Part shown: positions 5,848-20,029 of the stretch, piece by piece
Numbering within the stretch: the first letter of the stretch is position 1
How the letters are laid out: every line of letters begins with the position of its first letter
DNA from: Paenibacillus assamensis DSM 18201
GTDB taxonomy: Bacteria; Bacillota; Bacilli; Paenibacillales; Paenibacillaceae
Reading direction: 5' to 3'
Assembly: GCF_000422445.1 (NCBI RefSeq)
Contig: NZ_AULU01000020.1
Span: 1 to 64,000 of the forward strand
DNA length: 64,000 bases
Notes under the pieces: model-generated
The model's database searches: none
Told to the model about the DNA's origin: nothing
Seen by the model: the letters and a program-made list of their open reading frames with translations, nothing else
Position numbers and translations under genes: made by a program

Positions 5848-6416
5848 ATACATCCATATTAATTCTCCTAGGATGCGACTAACAGCATCCAGACAAGTAC
5901 TTGTATATCCCAAGCTGTTTCAATCCACGCATCCATGTAGGATGCGACAGAGACAATGACGACCGTTTACACCGTTCACTATAAGTTTCAATCCACGCAT
6001 CCATGTAGGATGCGACAAAAAATTTGTCTCCAGGCCAAACGGTTTGATTCGTTTCAATCCACGCATCCATGTAGGATGCGACAGAAGCAGACCACAGCGT
6101 TGCGGCTCTTATCGCAGTTTCAATCCACGCATCCATGTAGGATGCGACTTGAGCTAACGATAGGGACGTCTACTTACCTGATAAGAGTTTCAATCCACGC
6201 ATCCATGTAGGATGCGACTAATGGCGTTGCGCCATCCACGCTTGAAGTAAAAGTTTCAATCCACGCATCCATGTAGGATGCGACCCTGTATTTTTCAGGA
6301 TATATTCTTGCAGTTGGTGTTTCAATCCACGCATCCATGTAGGATGCGACTGATGGCCTGAATGACTTCGGTCGGTATAGTATCGTTTCAATCCACGCAT
6401 CCATGTAGGATGCGAC
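5848..6416 (-). CRISPR. CRISPR array 1 (8 intact repeats plus a degenerate one)
   Basis: Eight identical 32-nt repeats start at 5917, 5985, 6051, 6117, 6187, 6253, 6319 and 6385. The seven spacers are 34-38 nt. A degenerate copy at about 5848-5879, keeping TAGGATGCGAC, bounds an eighth 37-nt spacer. In the transcribed sense (minus) the repeat begins GTCGCATCC and ends GTGGATTGAAAC, with a CGCATCC/GGATGCG stem and 5-nt loop. That is the look of type I-C repeats. The decayed end is on the left, so the leader is on the right (6417 onward). None of the spacers obviously matches this window. Confidence 0.97.
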
Positions 6417-6590
6417 AGCGAAATTACAGCAATAAAAGAACATTAGTTCTTCTTTTGCTGGGAACAGTCAATCAAATAGTGCACATATCCCCAAATCAAT
6501 AGACGTGCATGCAACAAAAAAGTAAATAACTAGAAAATAATTGGTGCGAATGTCCCAAGGATTTTATGTGCACTTCACATTCGCACCAAG
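6417..6590 (-). promoter_or_regulatory. Leader of CRISPR array 1
   Basis: This is the AT-rich region next to the first, leader-proximal repeat. It aligns with the flank of array 2 over AGCGAA at the repeat side, a stem-loop (6427-6460), the block AAAAAGTAAATAACTAGAAA and an outer inverted repeat GGTGCGAAT (6543-6551) / ATTCGCACC (6579-6587). The stretch 6591-6731 between it and the cas6 stop shows nothing I can name. Confidence 0.8.
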
Positions 6591-6731
6591 CAATGATAGT
6601 TCGATCAATCAGCAAAAGTCGTGCTTCCATCATACTCTATTCCACTTTTAAATGCTATCTGGTAACTTGAACATGCATTATCTATTAACTTTTAAAGTCT
6701 ATAACCATGTATCTAAAGAACATAGTCATTT

Positions 6732-7610
6732 TTACGCAAATACAACGTCAACCTGACCGCATCCAAAAGTCGTATTACGACCAATATGAAGCGTCCGTGC
6801 AGCATTCAGCCAAGGAACAAAAGGAGTCAAATCCCCTTCTAGCGTCATTGCACCCAACATACCGCTCATATCCATCGTTTTACTACGACGATTAGAATAG
6901 CGCTGGACTTCGCTCAAGTACAAACCTGATGAAATTGTGCGAACGGCGGATGACCATTCAACTAGCTCCGAGATAGTATCTGACGATGCATGTCCTCCAT
7001 AGCGTTCGGTTACAGCTGCTACTCTTCGAGTTATATTTCGGATTACAGTAGGAAAATCGATATATTGCAGCAACTCCCCATTACGACGTATTCGCAACGG
7101 CGTTATACATTGAATCGAACAACGTGTAACATTGGATTGAGCAGATACTGTAAGCACTTCGGAGGTAGCTGCGGCTACATCTACCTCACCATTGCGCCAA
7201 ATCGGACTAAACTGCTCTCCGTGCAAAATATCGACCAGTCTAAATTTTTTTCTGCTGGCTCCGAGTTCGTAGCACCGTTCATTCGTCAAAGCCTTTACCA
7301 CATCGTTAAAGTAATCAGTTGCATTGCCCAACAGAATTAGCTTGAAAGATAACATATCCCCATGTCGGTACATGGATCGATATCTTGGAACCTCGATTAG
7401 ATAAGGATTGACGATGTCCTGATTGCCAGCGCCAAAGCGACGATTTTCAAATAAATACTTGTATGCTGCGGCTTGCTTCGATAACTTCCATCCGATTACA
7501 CCATGAAGGGTTGATCCCAGAAAAGGCGGTAATTGAACGGGATCACAACATTCCAGACGAATCATTAACGGCAAATAAGATAATGAAAATGCTAACGTTT
7601 TACTCGACAT
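6732..7610 (-). CDS. cas6: Cas6-family pre-crRNA endoribonuclease
   Basis: A 292-residue RAMP protein. The C-terminal glycine-rich loop LHIGRNTTFGCGQV matches the Cas6 pattern GKxTxFGxG, and an internal CITPLRIRRNGEL is typical of its second ferredoxin fold. Cas6 cuts repeat RNA to make crRNAs with an 8-nt 5' handle, here ATTGAAAC. It is last in the operon, nine bases after the Csm5-like gene, and faces the leader of array 1. Its presence with type I-C-like repeats is notable because true type I-C systems use Cas5d for processing. Confidence 0.85.
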   Translation of the reverse strand: MSSKTLAFSLSYLPLMIRLECCDPVQLPPFLGSTLHGVIGWKLSKQAAAYKYLFENRRFGAGNQDIVNPYLIEVPRYRSMYRHGDMLSFKLILLGNATDYFNDVVKALTNERCYELGASRKKFRLVDILHGEQFSPIWRNGEVDVAAATSEVLTVSAQSNVTRCSIQCITPLRIRRNGELLQYIDFPTVIRNITRRVAAVTERYGGHASSDTISELVEWSSAVRTISSGLYLSEVQRYSNRRSKTMDMSGMLGAMTLEGDLTPFVPWLNAARTLHIGRNTTFGCGQVDVVFA

Positions 7611-7619
7611 GAATTCAAC

Positions 7620-8408
7620 TTACTCCCATTTTATCTGTACGAGACCATGAGGCAATTTCTGTTGCTTATCGAAATAGATTGCACTCTTCTGTTCTGTATC
7701 ATTGTTATCGATATATAGACCTGATAGAATTGCCCCTTTATAACCACCGAGCAGTATGATCAATTCAGATGTACTATCGTCTTTTAATTGATATAAGCAA
7801 CCCTCTGAACGTTCCTTTACCTCTTGCAAATCAGCCCTATCTTTCGTATCTCCCATATTTAGCATACTGAACTTCAACTGCTCAACATACTGATGAAGGG
7901 TATGTGCTGTCTTCTGTTTCACACGTAACAAATACTCTTTAGGATCTTGATCACAATACACTACCCCTTGGTACTGTACACCTGCATTCAACATCTCTAC
8001 AGCAACATTTGGGAAAAATACCTCTATCTTTGCAGTCGACTCCGTATCCGTTCCAGCATGCTGCACTTTATACAAATTACGCAGTCGAATATCTTTACGA
8101 TCAACGCTAATATCATCTACCATCAACTGCGTTGGAAGAGGAGCAAACCCGCTAGCTCTAAGCGCCCCTTTCATAGAGGACCCTGGTATGTAATATTGTG
8201 CGCTTTGCGGATTGTATTTATTATAGGAACCATATTGGTAAAATGGATAGATGACATTTGCTTCCTTCATTTCTTCTTCTGAGTCAACTATGATCGCTTC
8301 AGTAGCAAAGTCCCCAGCAATACGATAGAAGCTATGTTGCTCTCGCGGGGAAAGCACTAAGCTGGAAATTGTCTGTAGTTGAAAATTATACGTTTTTAGT
8401 GATGCCAA
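7620..8408 (-). CDS. csm5: Csm5-like RAMP protein (Cas7 family) of a type III complex
   Basis: A 262-residue protein with the RAMP signature YYIPGSSMKGALRASGF near residue 75, as in Csm5 and other Cas7-like subunits. Csm5 caps the 3' end of the crRNA in type III-A effectors. It is shorter than many Csm5 proteins. Its frame overlaps the end of the Csm4-like gene by 23 bases, so the two are coupled. The Csm5 call comes from operon position and motif; it could be another Cas7 paralogue. Confidence 0.65.
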   Translation of the reverse strand: MASLKTYNFQLQTISSLVLSPREQHSFYRIAGDFATEAIIVDSEEEMKEANVIYPFYQYGSYNKYNPQSAQYYIPGSSMKGALRASGFAPLPTQLMVDDISVDRKDIRLRNLYKVQHAGTDTESTAKIEVFFPNVAVEMLNAGVQYQGVVYCDQDPKEYLLRVKQKTAHTLHQYVEQLKFSMLNMGDTKDRADLQEVKERSEGCLYQLKDDSTSELIILLGGYKGAILSGLYIDNNDTEQKSAIYFDKQQKLPHGLVQIKWE

Positions 8409-9411
8409 GTAATGACCTCCCTTCGATGTCTAAGGGGAACAAACATGCATGTCCAAAAACAACATCCCGAGCACGATGAGGGAACGGCGATGAAATGGAT
8501 CGACCTGCCTGTTGCCAGCTGTTGTTTACAGATACGATACTGCCTGCATCAATAAAGCTGATGAACTGCCCTGATAATTCGTTATTGTCCCACTTACCGA
8601 AAGCTTCATATGGTCGACGCTCCGATGTATACAGTTGGATGAAAGATTGTTCGTAATTGATATTTTTGGGCAACAGCATCCCCATATTTAAAAAAGTCCG
8701 CAATCCATCCTTTACCGCCCACTCCTCTGCTCGTATCGCAGTAATCATATATTGATTTAATCCTTGAGAGGCGCGAGCACCTAAGAAAAATCGTCTGCTG
8801 TCACTTTGAGCATGGTGCAACGCATCTAGTAGCTCCGCTGATTCCAGGCTATCATCGAGACATAGGTAGAAGGAAAATGCAGTGACATGCTTATCTTTTC
8901 CTGTTTTAGATTCCTTCTCCAAAACAGTAACTTCAGGTACAGAATATAAGTTAGGATCAAGACCCGGTATGTTGAACCTCACACTATCGATTGACGCATG
9001 AATTTGTTGCCCTGATCGAATATGCACATACGGAAAAACATTGGCTGCATGCTCAGGATTAACAATAAAATTTTCGAGCTGCTCCTTTTTGACATACACG
9101 CGCTTTTTAATCGCTTGGTATATTTGTTTGGCCGTAAGGCGATCCCCAGCGTTATCATGCTTAGGTAGTCTAGCTGCTTGATCTAGTAAATAAGATTGCG
9201 GCACTGGTAAGTGATCTAGCGGCATCATATTAGACAATGATACATACATTTCCTCTTCCCGAATTTTCGAAACTAGCAATGCCGCTTTCTGAGAGGAGTA
9301 GTAGTCAGCATACATGTATATGAGCGCACCAAAAATCTTCTGTGAGTCGGGTAATTGAGTAAGCCGGCCTTGCAGCGACATTTCAATCTTATACGTCTTG
9401 ATAGCGGTCAA
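8386..9411 (-). CDS. csm4: Csm4-like (Cas5-family) RAMP protein
   Basis: A 341-residue protein. Near the N-terminus LPDSQKIFGALIYMYADYY resembles the SDTLFGAL segment of Csm4/Cas5, and RRFFLGARASQGLNQY resembles the glycine-rich RAMP loop. The C-terminus has VFGHACLFPLDIEG. Csm4 holds the 5' handle of the crRNA and contacts Cas10. The gene begins one base after the Csm3-like stop. Its position between Csm3-like and Csm5-like genes follows the type III-A order. Confidence 0.7.
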   Translation of the reverse strand: MTAIKTYKIEMSLQGRLTQLPDSQKIFGALIYMYADYYSSQKAALLVSKIREEEMYVSLSNMMPLDHLPVPQSYLLDQAARLPKHDNAGDRLTAKQIYQAIKKRVYVKKEQLENFIVNPEHAANVFPYVHIRSGQQIHASIDSVRFNIPGLDPNLYSVPEVTVLEKESKTGKDKHVTAFSFYLCLDDSLESAELLDALHHAQSDSRRFFLGARASQGLNQYMITAIRAEEWAVKDGLRTFLNMGMLLPKNINYEQSFIQLYTSERRPYEAFGKWDNNELSGQFISFIDAGSIVSVNNSWQQAGRSISSPFPHRARDVVFGHACLFPLDIEGRSLLGITKNV

Positions 9412-9412
9412 C

Positions 9413-10132
9413 CTACTCGTCCTCCCCCATAATCTCTACTTGTATTTTACCGTATCCACGACTTCCAGAGTTACCAAGACGATACACGCCATCATTAAAC
9501 TGCTGGATCGCATCAATGATAAGTGTTCTCACCGTCTGAGGTTCAATCGATAATTTGTTCATCATGTACATGTTAATTTCGCCTGTAAACTGTACGCCAG
9601 GACGTACGGTCTTATAAGTTCGTGGATTAGCTGAGATAGCAGATGCTGCTCCATCATTTCTGATTTCAATCGTGTTTTTAGAGTCGATGGAAAATGGATC
9701 AGCTGCGTGGCAAGACAGTCGCAAATCATTAAATAATAACTTCGGCGTATGATTGAATCCTTCCAGTCCAAACAAACATTCCGCAGATGCTTGTTTCTTT
9801 ACACGCTTAAATCGATCCGACACTTTCTTTTTTCGTTCCTCTTCAATTTTCATTTGCTCTAACTGCACTTCGTTTTCTTTTTCCGTTCTTTTCAAATAAG
9901 TTAGGTAACTTTGTTTAATTTCATCCGCATCCGATAGAACACCTTCATTTACTAGATCGCGAACGATTGTACGCAAACTCCCTTTGAAGGAAGAGGCAGG
10001 AATGTATGGATTGCCTTCATGATCCGTAACAGTAAACAAATCGACACCGCCAATTTCAAACGTGGCTGGCGATCCTCCGATAAATAAATTCGAAAGCGTA
10101 GTCACTTTAAAACGAATCGTTTCGATACTCAT
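9413..10132 (-). CDS. csm3: Csm3-like Cas7 backbone protein, probable target-RNA nuclease
   Basis: A 239-residue RAMP with IGGVDLFTVTDHEGNPYIPA followed by SSFKGSLR, and a C-terminal GNSGSRGYGKIQV. Asp31 in GGVD sits where Csm3 has its catalytic aspartate, so RNA cleavage every six bases of target is plausible. A charged helix-rich insert (about residues 80-115, rich in K, R and E) is longer than I expect in the thumb region. The start overlaps the cas10 stop by four bases. It is the only Csm3-like subunit in the operon. Confidence 0.85.
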   Translation of the reverse strand: MSIETIRFKVTTLSNLFIGGSPATFEIGGVDLFTVTDHEGNPYIPASSFKGSLRTIVRDLVNEGVLSDADEIKQSYLTYLKRTEKENEVQLEQMKIEEERKKKVSDRFKRVKKQASAECLFGLEGFNHTPKLLFNDLRLSCHAADPFSIDSKNTIEIRNDGAASAISANPRTYKTVRPGVQFTGEINMYMMNKLSIEPQTVRTLIIDAIQQFNDGVYRLGNSGSRGYGKIQVEIMGEDE

Positions 10133-12294
10133 CTCTTTTTCCCCCTGTATGACTGCTGTCCTTTGTTAAATGATCGTTGTGCATTTTTATGTGGTGGCTT
10201 CGTGTTTTTCGCTTCTTGCCCGGGTGATAATTTGGGATTGCTTTTAAATTGGATCGATAACTCATTGTACTGATAAAGGATGTATAGAGAGTCGATATAG
10301 TCCTGGGTCCACAGTTGTGAACGTTTTGCCGTACGTATAAAACTGTCCTTGTCAAAAAATAAGTTGGGAGGTGCTTTCTTCTCACTCGCTCGTTGCTCCT
10401 CTAACTCATTGATCGTTTCTTCTGTTCGATCATTAAAATAATGAATCATCTCAGCAGCCTTGTAGATATCGATTTGCTGCCTATTCTTTAGTCGATGAAA
10501 CATAGAGCTAGAAATGCGAAGCGTGCGATAAATTTTAACGTTTTCCGCTTCCCTCGTTGTTTCCTTAGCTGAATACTCTGTATGTTTCACTAATATGTCT
10601 CGAAACGTCTTCCTATTATCTTGACTGGAAGCACTTCCCGTTTTCTTAAGTGAGTAAAGCAGACTTTGTTCATACAAATACCGTAACGCCTTATTGAAAA
10701 ACGTTTTGCGGATATCGTTACCGTTATATTCCACGCGGGAATTAGATTGTTGGTCTTCGCTAATATTGAATCTTGGATCTGAAAACAATAACAGTAAGCG
10801 AACGTAAGACTCTAGACGCTTACGCTGTTCAGGCTTAACATTCAAAAAATGTGGAGCTTTCTGGTACGTCCCCCGCTTCACTAAAAGCTGTTTGATAAGT
10901 GATTCGAGAATTAATAATTCGGATTTTGCTAACTCTATGTTGCTGCTGCCGAGATTCGCAGGCAACAAATGATAGAGTACGGCGTTGCTGTATTTCACAT
11001 CGGTCTTACATATCGTAGGGTCAGTAATTTTTTCAAGCAAATGATAGAAGAAGTGATGACCTACATACCCTTGGCTTATTGCTTGCTTCAGACGCTTAAC
11101 CATGTTTAAGAAGTGTCTCCAGTTCGGAATGTCTGCGTAGACTTCCTTCTTATCTTTAGGCGGATCAAAGTCATAAAACACATACTGATTGATGCTTACT
11201 TTGACATACGAAGCAGATAATTCCTGTAATGGAGGTACCTGTTTGGCACACTCTACTTGTTGCTGTACCCGCTCATAGTAATAACGAATTGGCTCACGAT
11301 TGAATGTAAAGTCAATGCCGATACTCATGGAAAGCGGTTGAAGATTGGTACCATACGTTATGTTGATTGCTTTTATTCCTTCATTTAATTGCTCCAACAG
11401 ATTTTTACATATGTTCACACCTTCAGTCAGCCACGGTGAAGCGACCGCAAAGAAAATGTCATCGCCTGCTATGTAGAGCGGATAGAGAGTAAAATGATTG
11501 CGTTTATCATTCTGCGTGTCCTTAGATTTATCACGTTGCTTGCCTTTATTTTTATTTTGATAACTCTGTGCTTGACGATGTAAGGATTCCAAAGAAATAT
11601 CGCTTGATAACAGGTCACTTACCGCTTTATACCCCTCATATGTCTTGATTTGTCCAAACCAATCACCCATTCCATCCAAATCGGCTTTTATCACCGCAAT
11701 ACGGAAATGGTTCTCATTCCCCTTCTCCTCATTTGAAAAAAGCTCGTTGATCGTACGAGAAAAAGCGGGATACTTGCTGTCATCAATAGTGGATTTACTT
11801 TTCCTATAAGATGGAGGAACTTTATTAAATTGAAATAACAGCTCATGTTGCCTTTCAATCATCGCATTTAGACATGATGTTTGTCTAAGTCTCTCTTTAC
11901 TTTCTTTGATCGCTTCTAGCTTGTGCTGACCATTTACAATCTCTTTCTCAAAGTAAACATATTTGACCAACAGTTGTCCTGCAAACGATTTATAGTAATC
12001 TTGAAATAAACAATCTGCTCTATCTATAATTTCGTTCGGATGTAACGAAGTCATAAAAATACATATTCCCGAGCACTTCAACAGTTCTTTTGACACGTGA
12101 CTGCTAAATACCCCAGTGTCCCCTTCCAGTCCGATATCTTGAAAGAACTGTTCAGAGATCAGTTTCGAGGAGTTCATAATGTCTTTTAACGTGCCGCTGT
12201 TCGACTGATTTTCTTGTATATTTACGCACAGGACATGATAGAGAAAGGTTTGTACTTTGTCGATTGAAAAAGCTACGATGTACTGCTTCATCAA
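10129..12294 (-). CDS. cas10: Cas10 large subunit without HD domain, AGDD active-site variant
   Basis: A 721-residue protein that begins directly with the first palm strand (FSIDKVQTFLYH, residues 9-20). The HD nuclease domain normally in front is absent. The second palm domain carries IKADLDGMGDWFG (202-214) and IAGDDIFF (275-282). The usual GGDD is AGDD, with Asp278 and Asp279 kept, so cyclic oligoadenylate synthesis is possible. A low-complexity K/Q/N stretch (about 245-265) lies between them. After the usual domains comes a long helical C-terminus (about 560-690) and a basic tail. It is coupled by 4-base overlaps to the nuclease and Csm3-like genes. Confidence 0.85.
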   Translation of the reverse strand: MMKQYIVAFSIDKVQTFLYHVLCVNIQENQSNSGTLKDIMNSSKLISEQFFQDIGLEGDTGVFSSHVSKELLKCSGICIFMTSLHPNEIIDRADCLFQDYYKSFAGQLLVKYVYFEKEIVNGQHKLEAIKESKERLRQTSCLNAMIERQHELLFQFNKVPPSYRKSKSTIDDSKYPAFSRTINELFSNEEKGNENHFRIAVIKADLDGMGDWFGQIKTYEGYKAVSDLLSSDISLESLHRQAQSYQNKNKGKQRDKSKDTQNDKRNHFTLYPLYIAGDDIFFAVASPWLTEGVNICKNLLEQLNEGIKAINITYGTNLQPLSMSIGIDFTFNREPIRYYYERVQQQVECAKQVPPLQELSASYVKVSINQYVFYDFDPPKDKKEVYADIPNWRHFLNMVKRLKQAISQGYVGHHFFYHLLEKITDPTICKTDVKYSNAVLYHLLPANLGSSNIELAKSELLILESLIKQLLVKRGTYQKAPHFLNVKPEQRKRLESYVRLLLLFSDPRFNISEDQQSNSRVEYNGNDIRKTFFNKALRYLYEQSLLYSLKKTGSASSQDNRKTFRDILVKHTEYSAKETTREAENVKIYRTLRISSSMFHRLKNRQQIDIYKAAEMIHYFNDRTEETINELEEQRASEKKAPPNLFFDKDSFIRTAKRSQLWTQDYIDSLYILYQYNELSIQFKSNPKLSPGQEAKNTKPPHKNAQRSFNKGQQSYRGKKR

Positions 12295-13163
12295 ATTCCC
12301 TCCCTCTGAAAATCAAATAGTTTGGCATATGCTCGATGTGGGAAAAGGATCGGATTGTTAATCAGCATTAGTAGCTGGTTAAGTTGGAAGTTGAAAGTAA
12401 GCAAGGATATTTCGTTTCCATCGGAATTATATACTTTATATTGCTCTAGATCGATATCTGCTAATTTCTTGTTTTCTGCCTCAGAAAGTTTTTCGACACA
12501 CTCATAAAAATTAAGTTGTTCAAACCAATCGGATAAGTTCTTATGATCAGTATACTTAATATCAATCCGTCCTTGACCTGATGATTTATCTTCTTGAACC
12601 GCAGATAAGACAATATCAAAGCCGTCGGAAATGCCCTCTTTAACTTGTGACTGAAGAGCACATAGGATGCGAATCGGTCTTGTAGAAGCTTGTGTTGACG
12701 CTGGTTTATTCGCTATTGAAGTCGCCATTCTTGCTGTGGAATCATCAGAAGTACGCAATTTTTTTATACTTTTAGTCCACTTTTTAATGGCTATTGGAGT
12801 AAGACTTTTACTTTTGCACTCCACGACGACAGCAACCGCTTCAATCGGGATAAATTTAATACGTCCATTTCGGAAGATATAAGGGGTATACGTTTCATCC
12901 ATAATCGCTAGATCTACCTCTCTAGAAACATTACCTTTCGAATCGATGATAAACACAGACGACTCGATAACAAACTTTTTCGGAACAATCATCTCAAACA
13001 ATTGCTTCCATATATCTTCTCGATTCGAACCGACAGTCGTCCCATGTAAATCATGCTTCATGTACAACTGCTCTACAATCGACTTCTCTAATTGGCGATA
13101 ATTTGCACGAATGTTTTCAATCATGATTTGTTTTGGTGGCTTAGTGTTCGATTTCGTTGTCAT
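12291..13163 (-). CDS. PD-(D/E)XK-like nuclease (DUF6602-like), first gene of the type III operon
   Basis: A 290-residue protein with a restriction-endonuclease-like core: Glu49 in VGSNREDIW, Asp84 in SREVDLAIMD, then IPIEAVAVVVECKSKS with Glu115-x-Lys117. This spacing fits PD-(D/E)XK enzymes and the uncharacterised DUF6602 group. There is no CARF domain or membrane segment. The start has a strong GGAGGAG site and the stop overlaps cas10 by four bases (ATGA). It may be the nuclease that replaces the missing HD domain of Cas10. That role is inferred from operon structure only. Confidence 0.7.
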   Translation of the reverse strand: MTTKSNTKPPKQIMIENIRANYRQLEKSIVEQLYMKHDLHGTTVGSNREDIWKQLFEMIVPKKFVIESSVFIIDSKGNVSREVDLAIMDETYTPYIFRNGRIKFIPIEAVAVVVECKSKSLTPIAIKKWTKSIKKLRTSDDSTARMATSIANKPASTQASTRPIRILCALQSQVKEGISDGFDIVLSAVQEDKSSGQGRIDIKYTDHKNLSDWFEQLNFYECVEKLSEAENKKLADIDLEQYKVYNSDGNEISLLTFNFQLNQLLMLINNPILFPHRAYAKLFDFQREGI

Positions 13164-13427: not shown

Positions 13428-13463
13428 CAAACTTATTTTATCAACACAACTATTCTCGCTTTT

Positions 13464-13825
13464 ATTTCAACCATCATTGTAGGATGCGACTGTTTGCAAA
13501 AGGAACTATCCACGTATGGTTCAAAGACATTTCAATCCACGCATCCATGTAGGATGCGACTGGGATAGTCGAGCATGTCTTCCAGAGGGCAGAATATGTT
13601 TCAATCCACGCATCCATGTAGGATGCGACGAACGGCGAGGACACGCCGGAACGTAAGGCGATGTTTCAATCCACGCATCCATGTAGGATGCGACCACATC
13701 TCTAAAGCATTTGTTGAGGAGGCAGAGGTTTCAATCCACGCATCCATGTAGGATGCGACTCAGCGCTTTGATCGCGACGTTTACACCATCAATGTTTCAA
13801 TCCACGCATCCATGTAGGATGCGAC
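13464..13825 (-). CRISPR. CRISPR array 2 (5 repeats plus a degenerate one)
   Basis: The repeats have the same 32-nt sequence as array 1 and start at 13529, 13598, 13663, 13728 and 13794. The copy at 13529 has A in place of the first G. A shortened degenerate copy lies at 13464-13490. The five spacers are 33-38 nt. Orientation equals array 1: transcription on the minus strand, leader on the right. The spacer at 13630-13662 reads through as an open frame on the plus strand, as expected for a piece of a phage gene, but no target can be named. Confidence 0.96.
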
Positions 13826-14001
13826 TCACAGCGAATTTCCATCAAAAGAAGAACGTTAATTCCCCTTTTGATGGAAACATTAAAATAAAAATTATATTTA
13901 TTACCAAAAAAGAAGGTGTGCACGAAACGAAAAAAGTAAATAACTAGAAAATAAATGGTGCGAATCTCCCGGGAATTTCATGTGCACTTCACATTCGCAC
14001 C
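13826..14001 (-). promoter_or_regulatory. Leader of CRISPR array 2
   Basis: Homologous to the leader of array 1. AGCGAA starts at 13830, four bases further from the repeat than in array 1. A perfect 13-bp stem (13836-13848 with 13865-13877) lies near the repeat. The block AAAAAAGTAAATAACTAGAAA and the outer inverted repeat GGTGCGAAT (13957-13965) / ATTCGCACC (13993-14001) are also kept, with the same 27-base spacing as in array 1. Confidence 0.8.
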
Positions 14002-14037
14002 ACGAAATAAATAAAGAGATCGCTTTTACTATCAACT

Positions 14038-14312
14038 CTATACATCAGATCGTGGTTTCGAATTCATAGCAAGGTCGCTAAATATTCCACTTACTCTTTC
14101 ATACTGTCTCAGTGTTCCCTCAAATGTAAAGTTCAACTTCTGTAATACTTTGGTTGAATTCACATTCCCCAGCTCTACATTGGCTTCAATCAGATTAAGC
14201 CCTAAAATTGAAAATCCGGTTATCTATTAAAGAGCGAATAGCTGTCCTCTTCCCCAAAATGTTTTAGCAATGTCATATCCGATTTCTGCTGTTGCATGTT
14301 CAAAATTTTTAT
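14038..14312 (-). pseudogene. Decayed GNAT acetyltransferase fragment
   Basis: This stretch aligns base by base with the C-terminal half of the intact acetyltransferase gene at 19487-20029. Shared blocks run from CATCAGATCG to the segment coding for the acetyl-CoA loop. A small internal deletion and in-frame stops break it, and the 5' part is missing. It sits directly behind the leader of array 2, just as the intact copy sits behind a half leader at 19391-19440. The two loci are therefore duplicates. Confidence 0.8.
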
Positions 14313-18285: not shown

Positions 18286-19083
18286 CTACAAATATTCCCC
18301 AAAGTAGTCTTTCAACCTATCCGCACAGTACCGATCCTCGCCTCTCCAGGTTGCCATTGAGACAAAGTCAGTTCCACGTCCACGCTCTTTACGGTAATCA
18401 TTCTGGGACTGTAACAGACCAGCGTAGCCCCATATTTCCATCACGCGATCTCGTTCATGCTGGTTGCTAGGAAAAATTTCTTTCCAGCGCTTCTCCAACT
18501 GTCGGGCTGCATCCTTTTCCTCGCATGCCTCTACGGCTTCGATCATTTGCTTGAGAATATCAATATCTTCGCTTCTAACCTCAAACTCCGCTTCCTGACT
18601 AAGTAGATTCAAGTCCATCATACAATAGAGCAGCCAGTTCAAACGGACGCCGCCCCATTTGATTCGCTCAAAATTAAGTACATTCAGATCCTCATCATCA
18701 TAATGTTCCTTCGCCATCAGTTTATTGTCATTGCAATCGCCACAAGCACAGTAGTTTATTTGTTCTGCCGCCCGTTCTGCGAAAGTATGTATCGGTAATT
18801 GATGTGTCAAGGCAAAGCTGGACAGGGCGCTTCGTAAATAAACCTTGCGCGTGGATAAACTGTGTAGAAAGGCACGAACTACTATTTCTTTTGTTATTTT
18901 TCGCTCGTGCAGTTCTCTTAATGCCAGCACGCATTCCTCATGTGATAGCGTTATTGGATCGAACATTAGTCCTTTACTTTTCGCATATTGAAAGTCTTCT
19001 TCCGTATAGGAGTAACCGCCTGACCTCCATCCGCCAGAGCTCCAGAACGTGTTAATCAATATTTTTTTTGCTTTAGCATCCAT
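18286..19083 (-). CDS. Hypothetical protein of the immunity-type cluster
   Basis: A 265-residue soluble protein of unknown family. It has an N-terminal FWSSGGWRSGGYSYTEEDF, a cysteine motif CACGDC that could bind a metal near residue 113, and a C-terminal tail with YRKERGRGTDFVS. It is co-oriented with the three preceding genes. The frame appears complete and the upstream region has no strong terminator. Function is unknown. Confidence 0.6.
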   Translation of the reverse strand: MDAKAKKILINTFWSSGGWRSGGYSYTEEDFQYAKSKGLMFDPITLSHEECVLALRELHERKITKEIVVRAFLHSLSTRKVYLRSALSSFALTHQLPIHTFAERAAEQINYCACGDCNDNKLMAKEHYDDEDLNVLNFERIKWGGVRLNWLLYCMMDLNLLSQEAEFEVRSEDIDILKQMIEAVEACEEKDAARQLEKRWKEIFPSNQHERDRVMEIWGYAGLLQSQNDYRKERGRGTDFVSMATWRGEDRYCADRLKDYFGEYL

Positions 19084-19266
19084 TGCAATTCGACTCCTAC
19101 TATTGAAATGTATTGTCTATCTTTTATGATACACTTGCAAAGCTATACGGTGACAGAGACGAATTTCACAAAAAAGATGAACAATTGCACACTTTATCAA
19201 AAAAATGCTAGTTCATCTCCACGTTACAAATAATTTTAATAGCTGAATGAAATATATCGAATACAA

Positions 19267-19300
19267 AGAAACCCTGCACCATTAAGTAGGCAGGGTTTCT
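19267..19300 (-). terminator. Terminator of a lost gene
   Basis: AGAAACCCTGC pairs with GCAGGGTTTCT, and the minus strand continues TTTGTATT. Directly upstream in that sense is only a gene fragment (19297-19381), so this is a leftover terminator. Confidence 0.6.
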
Positions 19301-19381
19301 GTACGACTTATCCTTACCTTTCCAAGTAAGTTTTCGTTTTTATTCGTTGTATCTTTTTTCGCAGCGAAGTATTCATACTCT
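19297..19381 (-). pseudogene. Fragment of a BlaR1-type sensor-domain gene
   Basis: On the minus strand this reads KKKEYEYFAAKKDTTNK and continues NENLLGKV. That matches the region around KKQNEYKYYPAKK of the broken gene at 41511-42133. Only about 28 codons remain. It abuts the half CRISPR leader at 19391-19440, so the junction looks like a recombination scar. Confidence 0.6.
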
Positions 19382-19390
19382 TTCTTTTTA

Positions 19391-19440
19391 TCCCGGGGAT
19401 TTCATGTGCAATTCACATTCGCACCACGAAATAAATATAG
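19391..19440. repeat. Half CRISPR leader without an array
   Basis: The sequence from TCCCGG through TTCATGTGCA, ATTCACATTCGCACC and CACGAAATAAAT matches the outer half of the leader of array 2 (13968-14012) almost exactly. The inner half, the stem-loop and all repeats are missing. It is followed by an acetyltransferase gene, as array 2 is followed by a decayed copy of that gene. Confidence 0.75.
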
Positions 19441-19486
19441 AGGACGTTTCCTATAAGGTATGCTAATCTTTGAACCTTTTAATCAT

Positions 19487-20029
19487 CTATGCATCAGATC
19501 GTAGCTTCGAATACATAGTAAGGTCATTAAATACACCATTTATTTTTTCATACTGTCTTAATGTTCCCTCAAATGAGAAGTTTAACTTCCGTAAGACCTT
19601 TGCGGAGTTAACATTCTCCGGTTCTACTTTTGCTTCAATTCGATTAAGCTCTAGCGTTGAGAAGCCGTAATCTAGCAAAGATTGAATCGCCTCCGTGGCG
19701 TATCCTCTACCCCATGATGTTTTAGCAATGTCATAACCGATTTCTGCTTTGGCATGTTCAAAATCCAAGTAATTGAAGCCACAAGAACCTATAATTTCAT
19801 TCGATACCTTATCAATAATTGAGTAACGAATGGCTTTGTTATCTTGAGAAAGTTCATCTAGAAGTTTAATTAGATCTTTCGCTTGACTTTCCTCAGTAAA
19901 ACTACTAACATTCATAAATTCGGTGACATCTGGATCAGACCAAATTTTAAATAAGCTCGGTGAATCCGACACCTTCATTTTCCTCATGTGCAAGCGTTCA
20001 GTGTGTAGCTCCGTATTCCAAGTAATCAA
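19487..20029 (-). CDS. GNAT N-acetyltransferase (RimJ/RimL type)
   Basis: About 180 residues with the GNAT fold: the opening HTERLHMRKMKVSD, the acetyl-CoA loop WGRGYATEAIQSLLDYGF and the C-terminal RLNFSFEGTLRQ of RimJ/RimL-like enzymes. I place the start at TTG 20029, preceded by GGAGGT at seven bases. The frame extends upstream to 20155 but that part does not resemble the family. Substrate unknown: a protein N-terminus or a small amine. A decayed copy lies at 14038-14312. Confidence 0.8.
   Translation of the reverse strand: MITWNTELHTERLHMRKMKVSDSPSLFKIWSDPDVTEFMNVSSFTEESQAKDLIKLLDELSQDNKAIRYSIIDKVSNEIIGSCGFNYLDFEHAKAEIGYDIAKTSWGRGYATEAIQSLLDYGFSTLELNRIEAKVEPENVNSAKVLRKLNFSFEGTLRQYEKINGVFNDLTMYSKLRSDA

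Follow-up and report, generated by a model that had tools for sequence, protein, structure and literature searches.

Type III CRISPR systems that involve the DNase NucC have been described in several bacteria. In Vibrio metoecus (2021), a Cas10 without an HD domain was shown biochemically to make cyclic tri-adenylate (cA3), which activates NucC, and a subset of Cas10 proteins in gammaproteobacteria, Firmicutes and Bacteroidetes also lacks HD (PMC8682760). In a type III-A system of Serratia, interference requires both the Cas10 palm motif and the NucC DNase, and the HD domain is degenerate and dispensable (PMC13060164). NucC is present in 35 loci of a 1113-locus set, and a NucC-Cas10 fusion has been noted (PMC11229360). 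Type III-A2, named in 2025, is a Cas11-lacking variant of type III-A with a cyclase predicted to be active and NucC as the probable effector in some systems (PMC12669027). The present analysis concerns a six-gene type III operon of Paenibacillus assamensis DSM 18201, located in the first 64,000 nucleotides of contig NZ_AULU01000020.1 (the window), in which a nuclease gene precedes an HD-less cas10.

By its predicted genes the locus fits type III-A2 (PMC12669027). The features shared with the published description are a Csm-type effector (Csm3, Csm4 and Csm5 with Cas10), no identifiable Cas11, a cyclase that is predicted to be active, a retained Cas7 catalytic aspartate and NucC, which some of the described systems carry. 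No difference was seen in this comparison by description, and the available part of that account does not mention the C-terminal extension of Cas10 described below. The V. metoecus system resembles the locus in its HD-less Cas10, adjacent nucC, cas6 and lack of associated adaptation genes, and there cA3 signalling has been shown; it differs in having Cmr (III-B) subunits and in being prophage-borne (PMC8682760). The Serratia system shares the Csm-type complex with NucC, but retains csm2 and the remains of an HD domain (PMC13060164). In Virgibacillus pantothenticus NucC is joined to Cas10, and standalone as well as fused NucC is present (PMC11229360); both arrangements recur among relatives of the locus (L083 and L080, respectively), whereas the nucC and cas10 of the window are separate genes. 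The pairing of an HD-less Cas10 with NucC is already described in other bacteria and is not new here. What is added is the intact cyclase throughout a group of related loci, the adjacency and fusion of nucC and cas10, their linkage across the family, and the Cas10 extension.

NucC and the HD-less Cas10

Close relatives were collected by Cas10 profile searches. Among 392 genomes of the order, 7 carry the group, counting that of the window itself, and a genome collection gave 15 loci. Merging of duplicates (L066 with G059, L070 with G194) gives 20 distinct loci, with hosts that include Paenibacillus, Amphibacillus, Eisenbergiella, Desulfosporosinus and Pectinatus, among others. One close relative, L032, has the same operon and a Cas10 that is 96% identical. 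No plasmid Cas10 match was found at E 1e-5.

The first gene of the operon (12291-13163, minus strand) is identified as nucC by profile and by modelled fold, and encodes a predicted cA3-activated PD-(D/E)XK DNase of a kind known from type III CRISPR and from cyclic oligonucleotide-based antiphage signalling systems (CBASS). It matches the full-length NucC profile (PADLOC PDLC01051, E 5.7e-83, profile positions 9-240 of 243), and structure comparison of the predicted model recovers the NucC fold. It also matches NucC/DUF6602, a family name for which no mention was found in the literature searched. The active-site pattern of PD-(D/E)XK nucleases, D-x30-E-x-K, is present (D84, E115, K117) and aligns with the NucC active site. 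The initial annotation had recognised a PD-(D/E)XK nuclease and named Glu49, Asp84, Glu115 and Lys117 as its catalytic residues, which agrees with the alignment: E49, D84 and K117 are invariant in all 18 group NucCs, and E115 is present in 17, with glutamine in L080. K63 and Y92, likewise invariant (18/18), align in the E. coli enzyme with R53 and Y81, which we take to be positions of the cA3 pocket. The surroundings of the gene are not those of CBASS. Its downstream neighbour is cas10, all five downstream genes are Cas genes, and a CRISPR array lies upstream; no CD-NTase gene adjoins it, although no genome-wide search for one was made.

The second gene, cas10 (10129-12294, minus strand; Pfam Cas10-Cmr2_palm2, E 4.4e-10), starts at the palm1 segment and has no HD domain. 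In an AlphaFold model compared with the PDB, the alignment of residues 1-509 to Csm1 begins at about Csm1 residue 231-248, which is past the HD part. No HD family is matched by any of the six operon proteins (Pfam, E up to 0.1). The earlier description of a Cas10 that begins at its palm motif is therefore upheld by Pfam, model and PDB comparison alike, and the missing domain was not found elsewhere in the operon. The cyclase motifs DLDGMG and AGDD are intact in all 19 aligned group Cas10s, from which the cyclase is predicted to be active.

The operon is compact. A good ribosome-binding site precedes nucC, whose stop codon overlaps the start of cas10. The overlap had been given as four bases. 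This length presupposes a TTG start at 12294; ATG at 12291 is judged the likelier start from homologue starts and ribosome-binding-site spacing, and, lying one codon later, leaves a 1-base overlap (TGATG).

The initial annotation had gone further and suggested that the nuclease may be recruited as a trans-acting DNase, in what would be a new effector arrangement. Such a recruitment of an unrelated enzyme would account for a PD-(D/E)XK nuclease beside an HD-less cas10 in an operon whose six proteins have no CARF match, in a genome with no Csx1-HEPN match. It is nevertheless scarcely credible, and was rejected on the identification of NucC by profile over its full length, active-site alignment and fold; there are also published precedents (PMC8682760, PMC13060164, PMC12669027). 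NucC is itself a known cA3-activated effector and requires no CARF domain. What survives of the suggestion is a nuclease in trans that stands in for the absent HD DNase, with close ties to HD-less cas10; the arrangement itself was published in 2021 (PMC8682760). The accompanying statement that CARF, Csm6 and Csm2 are lacking holds genome-wide for Csx1-HEPN and for Csm2; other CARF families, unmatched in the six operon proteins, were sought in those and in nine more proteins of the window, not genome-wide.

The remaining four genes have the families expected of them. They are csm3 (cas7; 9413-10132), a RAMP/Csm3 protein whose catalytic-type aspartate (GG[VI]D) is retained in 19/19 group members; csm4 (cas5; 8386-9411; PADLOC Csm4, E 2e-11); csm5 (cas7 group; 7620-8408; PADLOC Csm5gr7, E 1.2e-70); and cas6 (6732-7610; Pfam CRISPR_Cas6, E 2.7e-16), encoding the predicted endoribonuclease that processes CRISPR RNA (crRNA). 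In a listing of open reading frames (ORFs) of the window all six genes are intact and on the minus strand, as the initial annotation had placed them.

Linkage and fusion of nucC and cas10

The NucC protein was searched in 197 genomes of the window's family, with matches in 30. After merging of pieces these amount to 25 loci at E < 1e-20 (21 genomes) and 9 weaker loci (9 genomes). Counted from coordinates, a Cas10 palm2 match lies within 10 kb of 24 of the 25 strong loci and of none of the 9 weaker, more distant ones. The gene is thus not found equally often away from CRISPR loci, which the initial annotation had named as a refuting condition. Outside the window's own group, 19 palm2 places near nucC yielded 18 Cas10 ORFs. 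Judged by eye, 17 of these start at palm1, and the eighteenth is a fragment. A crude HD-motif pattern matched within the first 200 residues of the L041 and L044 Cas10s, and is read as chance because both ORFs start at palm1. Given the 24/25 linkage and the 17/18 Cas10s that start at palm1, NucC near an HD-less Cas10 is the rule in this family, across type III operons of several kinds.

The exception among the strong matches, L036 (G062:6064368; 9345-10310), encodes a NucC 66% identical to that of the window over residues 9-198. It precedes cas3-cas5-cas8-cas7-like genes, identified by eye as a type I-C-like operon, and there is no palm2 match to cas10 within 10 kb of it. The same genome carries other cas10-nucC loci.

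Within the group, nucC is directly upstream of cas10 in 18 of the 20 loci, overlapping it or separated by at most 23 nucleotides (longest ORFs). At L074 the locus is cut by the contig end, and at L083 (G200:C38; 5353-8331, minus strand) the two form a single natural fusion of 992 residues. It retains the catalytic D, E and K, and its genome gives no further match to nucC. L080, from a Fusobacteriales metagenome-assembled genome (4731-6881), has a separate nucC (with the E115 to Q change) followed by a cas10 that bears a degenerate segment resembling NucC at its N-terminus, and the contig ends inside cas10. This segment is matched at E 2e-10 in a one-sequence search with a profile that includes L080's own nucC, and at E 2.3e-6 when that nucC is the sole query; no match comes from a smaller profile run under default filters.

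This order, the two joined forms and the fusion observed by others (PMC11229360) could indicate that NucC is a Cas10-bound subunit, activated by contact or by a local messenger rather than by a free signal. However, closeness within one operon suffices for co-expression, and in other subtypes of the family (L040, L041, L044, L046, L047) ORF order places nucC after the other genes, not before cas10. The active unit of NucC is a hexamer, which would be hard to assemble on one Cas10, and the V. metoecus enzyme is reported to be a nuclease that cA3 activates (PMC8682760). Physical recruitment is not needed as an explanation, although the close gene order and the fusions point that way, and a bound subunit seems improbable. 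The natural series of separate nucC, degenerate fused plus separate copy, and full fusion allows one to ask whether the hexamer needs free NucC.

The Cas10 extension and the missing Cas11

No Csm2 (Cas11) was identified in the window's genome with PF03750 or TIGR01870, and the operon leaves no room for a csm2 gene. The Cas10, in turn, continues at its C-terminus for ~200 residues (about 510-720 of the model; window 10132-10761) beyond the part matched by solved Cas10 structures, and this extension is found in 19/19 aligned group members. The PDB comparison of the Cas10 model scarcely probed it. One possible, if rather doubtful, explanation is that the extension is Cas11 itself, joined in cis, in which case a single protein would combine cyclase and small subunit; L083 would then add the NucC effector as well, placing sensor, signal-maker and killer in one chain.

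In hhalign the extension scored 19.9 (E 0.021) against 4 Csm2 sequences (of 6 loci), compared with 10.3-14.1 for three other Cas10 segments. With 36 Csm2 sequences this weak signal did not hold: the extension scored 13.8 (E 0.16), which does not surpass the value for the D4 segment (14.6, E 0.13). The extensions of the 19 members have no Csm2 match in Pfam, PADLOC, NCBIfam or a profile search of PDB sequences. PADLOC gives weak, scattered matches to Cas6f (1/19, best E 3.6e-4) and Csx1/Csm6 (2/19, best E 0.0052), which are read as chance. A Cas11 translated separately from a start inside cas10 was also considered and is not supported: in the 19 genes, no internal start is both well conserved and preceded by a good ribosome-binding site. 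At the position shared most widely (alignment column 755), the ribosome-binding-site match is only 4-5 nucleotides long and occurs in 6/19. The extension is a candidate answer to the whereabouts of Cas11 in III-A2.

Flanking arrays and proposed mode of action

CRISPR arrays with a common 32-nucleotide repeat, overlooked in the initial annotation, flank the operon on both sides; they and the elements beside them are given here without strand. The left array (5917-6416) has 8 exact repeats and 7 spacers, and the right array (13529-13825) has 5 repeats, the first with 1 mismatch, and 4 spacers. A decayed repeat copy with 8 mismatches lies at 13459. Each array is accompanied by a putative leader, the left a 79-nucleotide element at 6516-6594 that is 90% identical to its counterpart at 13930-14008. 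A third leader-like copy (19391-19449) is 90% identical to 13967-14025, and the CRISPR repeat was not found in 19000-19480. It adjoins a GNAT acetyltransferase gene. Partial copies of the stretch at 19486-19764, in pieces that are 79% and 90% identical, lie after the right array, at 14037-14306, which suggests duplication. An IS200-like Y1 transposase gene is located at 224-622 (Pfam E 1.6e-38).

The arrays are short, one further repeat has decayed, and cas1 is not in the locus; a profile search of the genome finds its single cas1 match on a different contig, in an operon that is type I-C-like by gene order and length (the profile test being on cas1 alone). These features would be expected of a decayed, non-functional locus. 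Yet 12 of the 13 array repeats are identical across both arrays, the six ORFs are intact with catalytic residues kept, cas1 is available elsewhere in the genome, and L032 retains the operon. Decay is accordingly very unlikely.

It is instead highly probable that the locus is a type III-A system armed with NucC, in which cA3 from the HD-less Cas10 complex switches on the nuclease. Cas6 would cleave transcripts of the flanking arrays, and a Cas10-Csm3-Csm4-Csm5 complex would hold the crRNA and detect foreign RNA, which Csm3 would cut. Target binding would turn on the Cas10 palm cyclase, and the resulting cA3 would bind NucC and lead to assembly of the active hexamer. The hexamer would degrade the double-stranded DNA of both phage and host, a defence in which the cell kills itself. 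In this way the DNase output lost with HD would be restored by NucC through a diffusible messenger.

Several observations weigh against this reading or its classification. Fold comparison gives a low identity, 17-20%, to NucC proteins that have been characterised, the C-terminal half of NucC is not alignable by sequence, the match stopping at profile position 120-138, and one NucC model among five is good (mean predicted local distance difference test score 79, versus 62-68). Membership in III-A2 rests on described features rather than on a tree or on comparison with reference sequences. Of the 11 spacers, 6 were searched, and none has a phage match covering >80% of the spacer; 4 have no match and 2 have partial ones (71% and 56% of the spacer). 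Neither a messenger assay nor a nuclease assay was found for the group, and the choice of cA3 over other cyclic oligonucleotides is therefore an assumption. For this locus we infer all of the enzymatic steps, and cA3 as messenger; in relatives, cA3 synthesis and NucC activation were shown by others (PMC8682760). Gene identity, intact motifs, loss of HD and linkage are established in this analysis. The assignment gives a hitherto uncharacterised Paenibacillus-like locus its place in a known scheme of defence that runs from RNA sensing through a messenger to DNA shredding.
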